Positions 2,316-6,875 of a stretch of DNA of 6,875 nt are shown one piece after another. The notes under the pieces are model-generated. The model worked only from the letters and a program-made list of their open reading frames with translations. It was not told the DNA's origin and did not search any database. Origin of the DNA: an uncultured Bacteroidales bacterium (GTDB lineage Bacteria > Bacteroidota > Bacteroidia > Bacteroidales > UBA932); NCBI GenBank assembly GCA_946405645.1, contig CAMJHW010000072.1, forward strand, positions 1 through 6,875. Direction: 5' to 3'. The translations under genes were made by a program, and so were the position numbers. Within the stretch, counting starts at the first letter, position 1, and every line of letters starts with the position of its first letter.

Positions 2316-3875
2316 TTATTTCGCGTAAGCGACGGACCTGGTCTCACGGATGACGGTGATCTTCACCTGTCCGGGATAGGTCATCTCTTCCTGGATCTTC
2401 TGGGCGATGTCGGTGGAGAGGCGTGCAGCCTGCTCGTCGCTGACTTCTTCGGCTCCGACGATGACGCGGAGCTCCCTGCCGGCCTGGATGGCGTACGACT
2501 TGGTGACTCCCGGGTAGGACGCAGCCAGGTCTTCCATACCCTTCAGACGCTTGATGTACGACTCGATAACTTCGCGGCGGGCTCCCGGACGGGCGCCTGA
2601 GATGGCGTCGCCGACGAGCACGAGCGGAGCGATGATGGAGGTCATCTCGGTCTCCTCGTGGTGGGCTCCGATGGCATTGCAGATCTCGGGCTTTTCCTTG
2701 TACTGCTCTGCTATCTTCATACCGAGGAGTGCGTGAGGCAGTTCAGGATCCTGCTCGGAGACCTTTCCGATATCATGCAGGAGTCCGGCGCGCTTGGCGA
2801 GCTTGGGGTTAAGACCGAGCTCCGAAGCCATGATGGCGCAGATGTTGGCGACTTCGCGCGAGTGCTGGAGGAGGTTCTGTCCGTATGAGGAACGGTATTT
2901 CATTCGGCCGATGAGGCGTACGAGCTCCATGCTCATGCCGTGGATGCCGAGGTCGATGCAAGTACGTTTGCCGGTCTCGAGGATCTCGTCCTCGAGCTGC
3001 TTCTGGACCTTGGCGACCACTTCCTCGATGCGCGCGGGATGGATGCGGCCGTCGATGACGAGCTGATGGAGGGCCAGACGTGCGACCTCCCTGCGGACAG
3101 GGTCGAAAGCGGACAGGAGGATGGCGTCGGGTGTGTCGTCCACGACGATCTCCACTCCCGTGGCGGCCTCGAGTGCGCGGATGTTGCGGCCCTCGCGGCC
3201 GATGATGCGTCCCTTGATCTCGTCGTTCTCGATGGGGAAGGTGGTGACGGCGTTCTCGATGGCCGTTTCGGTGGCGGTACGCTGTATGGTATTGATGACG
3301 ATGCGCTTGGCTTCCTTGGCGGCGTTCAGGCGCGCCTCGTCCATCGTGTCGTTGATGTAAGCCTGGGCCTCGGTGCGGGCCTCCGCCTTCATGTTCTCCA
3401 TGAGGACGTTCTTGGCTTCGGCGGCGCTCATGCCGGCGATGGCCTCGAGCTGGCGGTTGACCTGGGAGATGAGCTTGTCATACTCTTCGCCTTTCTTCTC
3501 GACGTTTTCGGTGCGGGCCTGGAGGCTCTGCTTGAGGGAATCGTTCTCCTTGATCTTGCGGGCGAGGTCCTCGTTCTTCTGGTTCAAGGAGTTCTCCTTC
3601 TGCTTCAGGCGGTTCTCGGCGTCCCTGAGCTGGTTGTTCTTCTCGCTGACGTACTGGTCATGCTCGCTCTTCAGCTGGAGGAAACGCTCCTTGGCCTGGT
3701 AGATCTTGTCTTTCTTGATGTTCTCGGCGTCGTTCTTGATCTTTTCTGCCTCGAGACGCGCCTGCTCGAGGATTTCCTCACGCTTGCCCTTGAGGGCCTG
3801 ACGGCGGATGAATATGGAGACGGCCAGGGCGATTGCGGCGCCCAGTATTGCGGCCAATATGCAGTAAACCAACAT
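2316..3875 (-). CDS. rny: Ribonuclease Y
   Basis: This 519-residue protein is a full-length RNase Y, the membrane-anchored endoribonuclease that starts mRNA decay and processes some RNAs. The domain order is the canonical one. Residues 2-23 form an N-terminal membrane helix. A long Lys/Glu/Gln-rich coiled coil covers about 28-200. A KH RNA-binding domain has its GREG loop at 226-229. An HD phosphohydrolase domain spans about 330-430, with His338, His367-Asp368, His405-His406 and Asp423 as likely metal ligands. The tail (about 460-519) is the usual conserved RNase Y C-terminus. The start is firm, since an in-frame TAA lies only a few codons upstream and the stretch before the ATG is AT-rich without a Shine-Dalgarno sequence. 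It lies downstream of the 6S RNA and a hairpin on the same strand, and may have its own promoter. It converges with the GSCFA gene with no visible terminator. Confidence 0.97.
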
Positions 3876-3975: not shown

Positions 3976-4156
3976 AAAAAAAGCCGTTAGTCAGGTGTCA
4001 GAAAATCTTAATGATAAGATTTGAGCTCCGAACAAGTTCCGGCGTCCATCGTCCCGCTCGCGCGGAATCCCCGTAGGTCACCTTGGCCTGCCATCCCCCA
4101 TTCGAGTTACCCGGTTCCGAGGAACTTGTTGTTTTCAGCACGGGGGACTAACGGCT
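3976..4156 (-). ncRNA. ssrS: 6S RNA (RNA polymerase-binding regulator)
   Basis: The minus strand can fold into the 6S RNA architecture over about 181 nt. A perfect 11-bp closing helix pairs 4156-4146 with 3992-3982. A perfect 10-bp helix pairs 4130-4121 with 4040-4031. Between them lies an asymmetric bubble: 15 nt on the 5' side, and on the 3' side 38 nt holding a small 6-bp hairpin (4020-4005, UCAU loop). The apical part contains a 6-bp hairpin closed by a GCGA tetraloop (4067-4052). The RNA ends in seven U (3982-3976), fitting intrinsic termination. In known 6S RNAs such a bubble mimics an open promoter and holds housekeeping RNA polymerase. Position right after zapA matches the E. coli zapA-ssrS order. 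I saw no exact TAnnTTTG box just upstream, so it may be processed from zapA mRNA. It probably corresponds to the Bacteroidota 6S family (6S-Flavo); ends are approximate. Confidence 0.8.
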
Positions 4157-4445
4157 ACTTTTTATCAATGCTGTCGAGATAGGCACTAGTCTGGCTGAGG
4201 AGCGTGCGGGCCTCCTCGCTGAGCGAGGCAAGCCGTTTCTGCGACGACATACGGTTGACCGTTTCGTTGAGCGCGACGAAGGATAGCTTGTCCACAAGTG
4301 TCTTGTCCGGGAACCTCGCATCGTAGGCGGCGAGCTTCTGGTTGATGGATTCGGCAGCGAGTCTCATGAGCTGCTCCATCTCCGGGGAAGTCGCCTTCAG
4401 GGGATAGTCCTTACCGGCTATCTTGAGAGTAATGCTTTGTTCCAT
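4155..4445 (-). CDS. zapA: Cell division protein ZapA
   Basis: From the ATG at 4445 this encodes 96 residues, close to the usual ZapA size of about 100. ZapA binds and cross-links FtsZ filaments at the division ring in the cytoplasm. The N-terminal part (ITLKIAGKDYPLKAT, residues 5-19) is the typical beta-strand opening of ZapA. It is followed by the helical stretch with EMEQLMRLAAESIN (22-35) and a long C-terminal helix suited to coiled-coil dimerisation, including FVALNETVNR (60-69). A TTG 12 bases further upstream would add four residues and overlap the preceding gene; I prefer the ATG, which follows that gene's TGA after one base, suggesting coupled translation. The TAG stop (4157-4155) overlaps the 5' end of the 6S RNA by two bases. 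Confidence 0.9.
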   Translation of the reverse strand: MEQSITLKIAGKDYPLKATSPEMEQLMRLAAESINQKLAAYDARFPDKTLVDKLSFVALNETVNRMSSQKRLASLSEEARTLLSQTSAYLDSIDKK

Positions 4446-4446
4446 A

Positions 4447-4719
4447 TCACTTTTCAAGCAAGGAGATGCATTTATTGATCTCCTTTATGAGTTTATCTAT
4501 CCGTTCCTTCGCACTGTCGGAACTGCCTGTCGGTGTCAGAAACGCCTCAGCGAGCTTGAGATTCTCTATCTGTCTCTCCAACTCGGTTATTTGCTTCCTG
4601 CAGGTATCATTGGAGGCTTCGCTCGCTGCGAGTTTGGCGCGGAGGTCGGTATTGGCTTCGCGCTCGCTCTCGTAAAGTGCTATGACCCGTTCGAAATTCT
4701 TTTGTATATCTTCAAGCAT
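4447..4719 (-). CDS. Small coiled-coil protein, conserved upstream neighbour of ZapA
   Basis: This 90-residue protein is almost entirely helical and charged. Heptad-like Leu/Ile spacing runs over about residues 5-57, broken by a short loop with TPTGSSDS (62-69). A second helix, KERIDKLIKEINKCISLLEK, covers 71-90. There is no signal peptide or membrane segment, so it should be cytoplasmic. Proteins of this kind with the same C-terminal pattern are, from memory, common next to zapA in Bacteroidota and are usually annotated as hypothetical. Position and coiled coil suggest a division-ring partner of ZapA, comparable in style to E. coli ZapB, though I see no clear homology to ZapB. Its TGA is one base from the zapA ATG, so the two genes are surely one operon. 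An exact -7 box lies 25 bases upstream. Confidence 0.85.
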   Translation of the reverse strand: MLEDIQKNFERVIALYESEREANTDLRAKLAASEASNDTCRKQITELERQIENLKLAEAFLTPTGSSDSAKERIDKLIKEINKCISLLEK

Positions 4720-4752: not shown

Positions 4753-4808
4753 GTAAAAATGTATAAAAAATGAACCGCTTCAGAGGACATTTTTTGGCCG
4801 AATCACCC

Positions 4809-4816
4809 TATATTTG
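4809..4816 (+). promoter_or_regulatory. Putative -7 promoter box immediately before nadE
   Basis: TATATTTG matches TAnnTTTG exactly and ends only 7 bases before the ATG at 4824. If used, transcription would begin within a few bases of the start codon, giving a leaderless or nearly leaderless mRNA. No good -33 element lies at 19-21 bp; TTTG at 4793-4796 is too close. It also bears on the choice of nadE start. Confidence 0.4.
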
Positions 4817-4823
4817 TGTCATT

Positions 4824-6500
4824 ATGCGCAAGAATCCCGTTTTGAAAGTCACCGCCGTCACTCCCAGGGTCTGGCTGGCGGATCCCGTCAAGAATTCCGA
4901 AGAGATCATCCGCCGCGTCCGTGAAGCCGCGGCATCCGGATCGGACATCGTAGTTTTACCTGAAATGTGCCTCACCGGAGCCACCTGCGGAGACCTTTTC
5001 CGCCAGGAACTCCTGCTCGAAGCCGCACGCCGTGCGGCGCTCGAGGTGGCGAAGGCCACGGCCGGGCTCGACATCACCATAGTCCTCGGCCTGCCGGTAG
5101 GGTCCGACGGAGGATATTCCTCCGGCGCTGCGGTCCTCAAGGGAGGGAAGTTCCTCGAGGAGGACCCCCGTTTCCTGGTCGTTACCGGAGAGACGATCCC
5201 CGGCGGCCTTCCTGAAGGGACGCAGCTGGTGCTGCATCTTGCTGCCAGCCCGGAACTGGTGACGCGGCATGCGGCGCGCAAGCGCAGCCTGGCCGCGCTC
5301 ACATACCGGACCGGCGCATCTTACGTCTATTGCGCCGCCGGGTATGGCGAGTCAACGGGCGACGCCGTCTATGCCGGTCCGTCCCTGATCTATCAGAAAG
5401 GCCGGCTTCTCGCGGAGAACGCGCGTTTCAGCAGGGAGACGGGAATCATCTGCGCGGAGCTCGACCCCGACGCTCCCGCAGAGGAGCCTGAGGCGGCTCC
5501 CGCCGCTCCTGCGCTCCGCGCCAATCCTTTCGTCCCGGACGATACTGCTGAACTCGCGTCCAGATGCGACGACATCTTGTCGATACAGTCCCTCGGCCTG
5601 ATGACACGCCTGGAGCATGTCGGCTGCAAGACCGCTGTCCTGGGCATCTCCGGCGGCCTCGACTCCACCCTTGCCCTGCTGGTGACGGTCAAGGCCTTCG
5701 ACAGCCTCGGCCGCGACAGGAAGGACATCATAGCGGTGACGATGCCCGGCTTCGGCACGTCCGACCGTACGCACGGCAACGCCTCCGGGCTGATGGCCGC
5801 CCTCGGCGTCACCGCCCGCGAGATCCCCATCGGCCCCGCCGTGTCGCAACATTTCTCCGACATCGGCCATGATCCCGCGGACCACAACGTCACTTTCGAA
5901 AACGCCCAGGCCAGGGAGCGCACCCAGATACTGATGGATATCGCCAACGATACAAACGGCCTGGTGGTCGGTACGGGAGACCTCTCCGAGATCGCGCTTG
6001 GCTGGTGCACCTACAACGGCGACCATATGGCCATGTACAGCGTCAACGCCGATGTTCCCAAGACCTTGATGCAGGCAATGGTGCGCTGGGCGGCCGAGAA
6101 CCGCTTCCCGGAGGCGCGCGGCATACTGCTCGACATAGTGGACACGCCAATCAGCCCCGAGCTTACTCCCGTCGACGAGAACGGCCGCATCAAGCAGAAG
6201 ACGGAGGATATAGTCGGTCCTTACGAGCTTCACGACTTCTTCCTGTATCACCTTGTCCGCCACGCCCGCCGGCCGCGCGAGATCCGCGCCCTGGCCGTCG
6301 AGGCATTTGCGGGCAGATACGACGAAGCCACCGTCGACCGGTGGCTCCGGAAATTCCTGTGGCGCTTCTTCTCGCAGCAGTTCAAGCGTTCCTGTTCGCC
6401 CGAGGGCCCGCGTGTTGGCTCGGTCTGCCTGTCGCCCCGCGGCGCCTGGGCAGCCCCCTCCGACGTCTCCGCCGCCCTCTGGGTCTCCGACCTGGATTGA
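4824..6500 (+). CDS. nadE: NAD+ synthetase with a truncated glutaminase domain
   Basis: NAD+ synthetase amidates nicotinic acid adenine dinucleotide to NAD+ with ATP, the last step of NAD synthesis. This copy has 558 residues, clearly shorter than the usual 640-680 of the glutamine-dependent two-domain form. The C-terminal synthetase domain is intact: SGGLDS pyrophosphatase loop (276-281), MPGFGTSDRT (307-316), GTGDLSE (383-389), SPEL (444-447), and the conserved end with FFSQQFKRSC (515-524). The N-terminal nitrilase-type domain keeps its first catalytic residue, Glu47 in LPEM. The segment between AAVLKGG (102-108) and LHLAAS (137-142) is only about 30 residues. The family's catalytic Lys block (KTxLPNY) and Cys block (EICEDLW) belong there and are absent. 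Cys170 lies in a different conserved block. Ammonia is the predicted nitrogen source. An in-frame ATG at 4770 would add 18 residues unlike the family's N-terminus; I prefer 4824. Confidence 0.93.
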   Translation: MRKNPVLKVTAVTPRVWLADPVKNSEEIIRRVREAAASGSDIVVLPEMCLTGATCGDLFRQELLLEAARRAALEVAKATAGLDITIVLGLPVGSDGGYSSGAAVLKGGKFLEEDPRFLVVTGETIPGGLPEGTQLVLHLAASPELVTRHAARKRSLAALTYRTGASYVYCAAGYGESTGDAVYAGPSLIYQKGRLLAENARFSRETGIICAELDPDAPAEEPEAAPAAPALRANPFVPDDTAELASRCDDILSIQSLGLMTRLEHVGCKTAVLGISGGLDSTLALLVTVKAFDSLGRDRKDIIAVTMPGFGTSDRTHGNASGLMAALGVTAREIPIGPAVSQHFSDIGHDPADHNVTFENAQARERTQILMDIANDTNGLVVGTGDLSEIALGWCTYNGDHMAMYSVNADVPKTLMQAMVRWAAENRFPEARGILLDIVDTPISPELTPVDENGRIKQKTEDIVGPYELHDFFLYHLVRHARRPREIRALAVEAFAGRYDEATVDRWLRKFLWRFFSQQFKRSCSPEGPRVGSVCLSPRGAWAAPSDVSAALWVSDLD

Positions 6501-6875
6501 CTACAGTGAAGATATCAGCCGGGTGAAGAGCCCGCACATGCGGTCGGCGGCAGCGTCGGCCGCACGTACCACGTCGTCTCCGTCATTGAAGTTCCTGGGG
6601 ATGTTGTCGGTGTTGCATTTGTTGGTGATGACCGACATTCCGAACACCCTGATGCCGCAGTGGCGGGCAACGATGACCTCCGGGATGGTGGACATGCCCA
6701 GGACGTCGGCGCCGGCCATCCTGTAGAACCGTACTTCCGCCGGAGTCTCATAAGTGGGGCCGGGACCGCCGAAATACACTCCCTTGTGATACCTCACGCC
6801 CATCTCCACGGCAATCTGCTGCGCCCTGTCGATAAGCTCGAGGTCGTATGCGCAGGTCATGTCGGGGAAGCGGGG
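6501..6875 (-). CDS. Purine nucleoside phosphorylase, trimeric PNP-I type (5' end beyond window)
   Basis: The visible 124 codons are the C-terminal part; the frame stays open to the window edge, and the ATG at 6860 is internal. The enzyme cleaves inosine and guanosine with phosphate to a free base and ribose-1-phosphate in purine salvage. Recognisable blocks, numbered from the first visible residue, are the GPGPTYETPAE stretch with its substrate-binding Glu (about 33-43) and GADVLGMSTIPEVIVARHCG (about 50-69). ITNKCN follows at about 78-83. They correspond to human PNP Glu201, Met219 and Asn243. The nearly unbroken VPEVIVARHCG-type block marks the trimeric family rather than hexameric DeoD. 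The tail ends in an ordinary helix. Its TAG stop begins at the base right after the nadE TGA, on the opposite strand. The symbol is left blank because usage varies (punA, pnp, deoD). Confidence 0.9.
   Translation of the reverse strand, partial: PRFPDMTCAYDLELIDRAQQIAVEMGVRYHKGVYFGGPGPTYETPAEVRFYRMAGADVLGMSTIPEVIVARHCGIRVFGMSVITNKCNTDNIPRNFNDGDDVVRAADAAADRMCGLFTRLISSL

Follow-up and report, generated by a model that had tools for sequence, protein, structure and literature searches.

The nadE gene at positions 4824-6500 (+ strand) of a contig of 6,875 bases from an uncultured Bacteroidales bacterium (this whole stretch is the window referred to below) encodes an NAD+ synthetase of 558 residues with a decayed glutaminase domain. 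Very probably, it is a formerly glutamine-dependent enzyme of the Mycobacterium tuberculosis type that now depends on ammonia and is built on a non-catalytic scaffold. Judged by alignment, the catalytic Lys, the catalytic Cys and the YRE loop are lost throughout its close clade, and the ATP loop is retained; the nitrilase fold is predicted to survive, and ammonia would be the nitrogen donor. A wider reading, for which the chances are about even, supposes that the two-domain NadE was dismantled where it stood, repeatedly and by stages (Cys-to-Gly, loop loss, half-size remnant), in one genus of gut Bacteroidales, and that glutamine use was regained through intact nadE genes acquired from relatives in a PII/ammonium-transporter cluster; the outcome would be a general ammonia enzyme beside a nitrogen-controlled glutamine enzyme.

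The extent of the loss can be read against M. tuberculosis NadE (the 6ofc sequence). Residues 7-115 and 132-215 of the window protein match its glutaminase domain, and residues 232-558 its synthetase domain. Window residue 115 pairs with residue 120 of the M. tuberculosis chain, and window residue 132 with residue 193; between these flanking matches there are 16 window residues (116-131, encoded at 5169-5216, + strand) versus 72, a net loss of 56. The first-pass annotation had located the gap at 5127-5245, which corresponds to residues 102-141, and had given a usual spacing of about 85 residues, of which about 30 were left; the measured distances agree with this. In M. tuberculosis NadE, loss of Cys176 abolishes glutamine use, while ammonia use remains. 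The numbering of that enzyme in PMC6946656, which also describes C176A structures, places the catalytic Lys at 121, the YRE loop at 127-132 and the catalytic Cys at 176, and the segment absent from the window NadE spans all three. From the Glu-Lys-Cys triad only Glu47 is kept (4962-4964, + strand); the YRE loop falls within the 72-residue stretch that has no counterpart. Several relatives have Ala, Pro, Lys or Arg at the position of Glu47. The strand that bore the catalytic Cys may survive as the window sequence VVTGET, with Gly at the Cys position, in an alignment that is uncertain here.

The gap is real, in frame and common to a clade. Among the best 120 of 8000 proteins scored in a homologue search, 46 near-full-length proteins (P0003-P0048; 542-572 residues, 70-91% identity) all have the same gap. 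Five further matches are fragments (316-424 residues, 75-91% identity), of which only P0056 spans the region, and it too shows the gap; in eleven others (514-531 residues, 55-60% identity) the gap is even larger. Full-length Bacteroidales homologues among the same 120 are about 640-700 residues long; of those shown, all but one have the VPK motif and either EIC(Q/E)D or ELCED. The exception is P0068 (640 residues), which elsewhere resembles the P0072 group; around the catalytic Cys its alignment shows a different sequence, without the Cys motif that near-identical relatives possess; a local frameshift or a further loss could account for it.

The nearest genomes, all from draws of one GTDB genus, are G440 (84% identity over all 558 residues) and G394, G366 and G460 (81%), and each has the gap inside a frame of exactly 558 codons. 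A frameshift hiding the segment is ruled out by the equal in-frame length of the five coding sequences compared. A deletion arising in assembly or sequencing has a negligible probability, as the same in-frame gap recurs in 46/46 near-full-length homologues and in the four other genomes. The window type was seen in at least 4 of 400 genomes of the genus draw. A contig scan with alignment A1, in which a general motif drew many matches, gave one locus of shortened length (L039) among the 80 listed. NadE similarity and gene order place the window, by inference, in or close to the Candidatus Cryptobacteroides group of gut Bacteroidales.

Apart from the gap, the protein retains the architecture of its family. 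The open frame begins at 4770 (4770-6500, + strand), and the Met at 4824 yields the 558-residue product. It scores 638.9 bits against NCBIfam NF002730 (NAD(+) synthase, PRK02628, 677 positions; cut-off 473), and 91.8 bits against NF010587, below the cut-off of 255. The NAD_synthase profile PF02540 matches residues 259-489 (104.8 bits); the CN_hydrolase profile PF00795 matches residues 8-102 (26.2 bits) with positions 1-95 only of its 256. The nitrilase-fold remnant occupies residues 1-221 (4824-5486, + strand), and the synthetase domain with its C-terminal extended loop residues 233-558 (5520-6497, + strand). The ATP-pyrophosphatase loop SGGLDS (residues 276-281; 5649-5666, + strand) is unchanged in 54/54 sequences of alignment A2. 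The C-terminal loop is kept, residues 518-558 aligning to M. tuberculosis 632-674, with low model confidence at residues 519-542. In the predicted structure the nitrilase fold is still present. By descent and architecture, as far as sequence comparison can tell, the window NadE is thus of the M. tuberculosis type; it is not classed as glutamine-dependent, because the triad that defines that activity is broken.

Relatives within the genus display the decay in graded form. The 79 NadE genes considered were picked by similarity to the window protein, with only the best matches kept, so that the count of affected genes is not a genus frequency: Glu, Lys and Cys are all present in 54, and the triad is not intact in 25. 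At one end of this series stand full-length proteins with Cys replaced by Gly (G586, G555 and G309; 654-685 residues, e.g. IELGDDLW); G465 (676 residues) has in addition Arg for Lys. The Cys-to-Gly change is joined by a shortened loop in G524, G620, G487 and G308 (550-629 residues) and by absence of the Lys loop in G231 (574 residues); G591 and G371 show other losses. The window type is represented by G394, G366, G440 and G460. The entire Lys-to-Cys stretch is gone from G481, G462, G380, G566, G303, G543, G406, G001, G542 and G334 (open reading frames, ORFs, of 491-618 residues), and eight of these ten have lost the Glu as well (seven to Pro, one to Arg); the series ends in forms of about 520 residues. 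All of 26 further sequences from a family draw (loci L092-L117, 22 of them from genomes also in the genus draws) are intact, which weighs against a higher share of affected genes. The first-pass annotation saw the gap correctly; the repeated decay within the genus, and a second nadE in 3/25 of the affected genomes (see below), lay beyond its view.

Trees were built on the synthetase domain alone, to keep the trait itself from influencing them. In a quick tree that retains the long rows (113 rows in total), 41 affected rows fall in one clade (Shimodaira-Hasegawa-like approximate likelihood ratio test, SH-aLRT, 98), and four changes are needed in all. A more careful tree comprises 74 of 182 aligned rows. 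Eight long-branched or unstable rows were removed from it (G371, G334, G001, G481, P0117, G428, G432 and P0052), as were 16 rows in thinning of relatives, the 26 rows L092-L117, most of the P rows and five of the eight outgroups. Here 23 affected rows form one clade (support 100/96), G591, G586, G555 and G309 form a second (100/99), and G465 stands apart beside the intact G640 (88/64). Three changes are required across the 5-95% bootstrap range, and a single change in 0% of 200 bootstrap trees; the well-supported branches force two. Counts alone do not separate loss from gain; losses are the natural reading because the tree is rooted on outgroups. The glutaminase site has been lost at least twice in the Candidatus Cryptobacteroides group, and three times on the best tree.

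The two halves of the protein are under different constraint. Between the window and the four genomes of its type, the ratio of nonsynonymous to synonymous rates (dN/dS) is 0.12-0.23 for the nitrilase remnant and 0.02-0.10 for the synthetase domain; in several of these pairs synonymous sites approach saturation. The dN of the nitrilase part divided by that of the synthetase domain, in pairs that share branches and so are not independent, ranges over 0.67-1.99 for 15 intact pairs; three window-type pairs reach 4.5-8.4, and one other affected pair 5.2. Selection on the remnant is thus relaxed, but it is still purifying.

Whether another enzyme covers the NAD synthetase step was approached with a PF02540 search of 31 draft genomes: the 25 affected, and six picked for weak matches in the genus draw. 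Matches with an expectation (E) value below 1e-24 were called nadE, and weaker ones (E of 2.9e-9 or more) were taken as other ATP pyrophosphatases. A single nadE was found in 22 of the 25 affected genomes; G366, G394 and G542 have two. Two copies as a general rule of the window clade was an idea dropped, as two of the four window-type genomes have them. The six other genomes (G293, G314, G305, G317, G318 and G321) all carry a single-domain NadE (ORFs of 246-293 residues), and this search found no two-domain NadE in them. One genus therefore holds three solutions to the NAD synthetase step.

Where two copies occur, the short gene keeps its place and the intact one lies with genes of nitrogen metabolism. 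In G394 and G366 the short nadE is at a site like that of the window (RNase Y, ZapA, nadE, phosphorylase); the second is intact and sits inside a cluster that runs, in the order of transcription, pyrG, glnB (PF00543), amtB (PF00909), a gene for a 244-residue protein without a Pfam match, nadE2, asnB (PF00733) and the type III glutamine synthetase gene GSIII (PF12437). The gene after GSIII, read from its start without a family search, is presumably that of the glutamate synthase large subunit. In G394 the contig ends inside the 244-residue gene, and pyrG is on a separate contig. The nadE2 site is empty in G460 (77 bases versus 2647) and on a G440 contig. The acquired NadE is 94-95% identical to that of G249, against 77% for pyrG and GSIII of G366, and it clusters with G249/G323 in the careful tree (100/98); for these reasons horizontal transfer is the simplest reading. 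The insert of G366 also brings, just before asnB, a 92% copy of the 275 bases that separate pyrG from glnB (L129, 8295-8567 and 13204-13476); the copy also occurs in G394, at the place of the nadE2 insertion, and is absent in G460. It is possibly a copied nitrogen promoter.

The third case is G542, of the 520-residue lineage, whose intact nadE lies directly upstream of glnB-amtB and is 85% identical to the G365/G564 lineage; in G406 the same site is empty (24 bases versus 2307). The second copies of the three genomes thus apparently come from two donor lineages. Contamination is an unlikely, though not an impossible, source of these copies, since the neighbouring genes match the resident group. 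For pyrG there is one match in each of G366, G394 and G460, and two pieces on one contig in G440; identity is 95-100% within this group versus 77% to G249. GSIII is not single-copy, each of the four genomes having a second, 74% copy; for the copy in the operon, identity is 96-100% inside the group and 77% to G249. The one amtB match of G542 is 95-98% identical to G406, G303 and G566 versus 87-90% to the donor-like G365, G469, G564 and G575; the amtB search found none in G543. On the contig of the G542 nadE2, icd has one full match (95-97% to relatives) and a weak second at 27%. The closest relatives of G366 differ between the two loci: G394 and G440 rather than G460 at the nitrogen cluster, G460 and G440 rather than G394 at the nadE locus. 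The intact G625 also has two nadE genes, different from each other and both full-length (L248, L249); no amtB match was found among the ORFs of the G625 regions fetched.

A mechanism consistent with these observations would have the synthetase domain adenylate nicotinic acid adenine dinucleotide (NaAD) and then amidate it with free cytosolic ammonia, which would reach the synthetase site without the old tunnel entrance; the dead nitrilase domain would be retained for packing against the synthetase domain and for support of the oligomer. Probably the glutaminase site was inactivated first, as in the still full-length relatives with Cys changed to Gly, and the useless loop was deleted after. Some affected lineages would later have gained an intact NadE in or beside a glnB-amtB cluster, with the acquired copies presumably under nitrogen control; such acquisition suggests that glutamine is not used by the resident enzyme.

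The original proposal for the window, that glutamine use was lost and the scaffold kept, has held up: the residues are gone clade-wide, the fold is predicted, the synthetase domain is conserved, and the gene is the sole nadE found in 22/25 affected genomes. Several points weigh against it all the same. Six relatives (P0031, P0033, P0034, P0039, P0042 and P0045) have, by alignment, a Cys near the old catalytic position (VLTCNE), though with Ala for the catalytic Glu and no Lys. In eight of the 12 affected pairs the dN ratio of the two domains is 1.56-2.60, overlapping the intact range. The genomes searched are draft metagenome assemblies whose completeness is not given, and some of these drafts may miss a second nadE. 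In the intact G365 the native nadE lies inside a similar nitrogen island; the linkage is therefore not restricted to acquired copies, and location by itself is no proof of a need created by decay. Finally, what speaks for the scaffold role is a predicted fold and a pattern of selection, and what speaks for ammonia use is the missing catalytic residues.

Other ways to account for a NadE without a glutaminase site place the source of ammonia, or of NAD, in another protein. The short NadE might form mixed oligomers in which a full-length NadE feeds it ammonia through the inter-subunit tunnel that M. tuberculosis NadE is described as having (PMC6946656). G366, G394 and G542 do possess both kinds, but the affected form is alone in the other 22 affected genomes, the gate of the tunnel, the YRE loop, is missing, and the full-length copy of G366 and G394 comes, by the tree, from another lineage, which argues against long co-evolution; such an arrangement is quite unlikely. 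The first-pass annotation had raised instead a separate partner supplying nitrogen, and a glutaminase or amidase encoded elsewhere would act as in the two-subunit NAD synthetase of Thermus thermophilus. The kept C-terminal loop, an interface element according to PMC3376133, fits such a partner. A PF00795 search of 22 genomes (15 affected, 7 intact), in which classes were judged by ORF size only, found a stand-alone CN-hydrolase in 12 of the 15 affected genomes (255-279 residues; 347 in G406), but also one of 258-279 residues in 4 of the 7 intact ones; for G231, G380 and G487 the matches listed include none. The larger class, which we take to be Lnt-sized, is found in 14/15 affected and 5/7 intact genomes. 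No size class is peculiar to the affected side of this comparison, though a shared enzyme could still serve. The annotated neighbours of nadE in the window include no CN-hydrolase, and the matches of the genome search sit away from the short nadE. The partner thus finds no support in the 15 affected genomes, and it is a very unlikely explanation.

That the short nadE is a decaying pseudogene, with NAD made by another route, would fit the faster evolution of its nitrilase half than in intact relatives. It is a most improbable reading: the 558-codon frame is open in 5/5 sequences, both domains have dN/dS well under one (the ranges given above), and in 22/25 affected genomes no other nadE was found. 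The ammonia-dependent enzyme on a non-catalytic scaffold is the reading carried forward here.

Set beside known systems, the window NadE shares with the M. tuberculosis enzyme (NF002730) the domain order, the ATP loop, the C-terminal extended loop and the nitrilase fold; that enzyme is octameric and has the catalytic Lys, the Cys and the YRE loop, which the window protein, at 558 residues and known from sequence, has lost. In its expected donor, free ammonia, it resembles the single-domain NadE of the Escherichia coli and Bacillus subtilis type, a form also present in other species of its genus (6/6 tested); unlike those proteins of about 250-300 residues without an N-terminal domain, it is two-domain by descent and keeps the remnant. 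The T. thermophilus enzyme of PMC3376133 likewise has a synthetase part without an active glutaminase of its own. As that paper sets out, the G-subunit gene of two-subunit NAD synthetases may be adjacent (type C) or remote (type R); the window nadE has no adjoining G-subunit gene, and the 15 affected genomes have no peculiar nitrilase. Human CPS1, as described in PMC4655335, is a known case of an ancestral glutaminase domain that persists without its catalytic Cys in an enzyme using ammonia; CPS1 is unrelated and has Cys changed to Ser in a complete domain, whereas here the catalytic segment is deleted. The second nadE genes of G366, G394 and G542, with glnB and amtB, recall the PII-nadE gene islands outlined in PMC7196632, but the lineages that acquired them have a resident NadE that has lost its glutaminase site. 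The open-access literature, by titles and the starts of abstracts, yielded no description of a Bacteroidales NadE that has two domains and a deletion of the glutaminase site.

If the ammonia reading is true, an essential amidotransferase has changed its nitrogen donor through decay of its glutaminase domain, and the intermediates within one genus make the order of steps directly testable. The C-terminal loop, the interface element of PMC3376133, persists despite the lost glutaminase site. There is also a consequence for annotation: P0004, a close relative, is named 'NAD+ synthase (glutamine-hydrolysing)' by one source, and the nitrogen metabolism predicted from the genomes of these gut bacteria may therefore be wrong at this point.

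The neighbourhood of the gene, called from ORFs and Pfam matches, is in part conserved. Downstream lies the 3' part of a purine nucleoside phosphorylase gene (6501-6860, - strand; PF01048, 90.5 bits), a conserved neighbour that adjoins nadE in G394 and G249 and is separated from it by one gene in G211. Upstream are a small gene with a sub-threshold DivIC match (4447-4719, - strand) and a ZapA-like gene (4155-4457, - strand; PF05164, 36.9 bits), which also belongs to the conserved neighbourhood; the order of the ZapA-like gene and nadE recurs in G394 and G366. Adjoining the ZapA-like gene, 3976-4156 (- strand) gives a weak match over the full model length to Rfam RF01693, Bacteroidales-1, a suggested 6S RNA (31.8 bits versus a gathering score of 60; E 0.019). 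Farther out are RNase Y (2316-3875, - strand), a GSCFA protein (1396-2304, + strand) and a gene of 448 residues without a Pfam match (1-1344, - strand); ORFs resembling this last gene occur near RNase Y in relatives.
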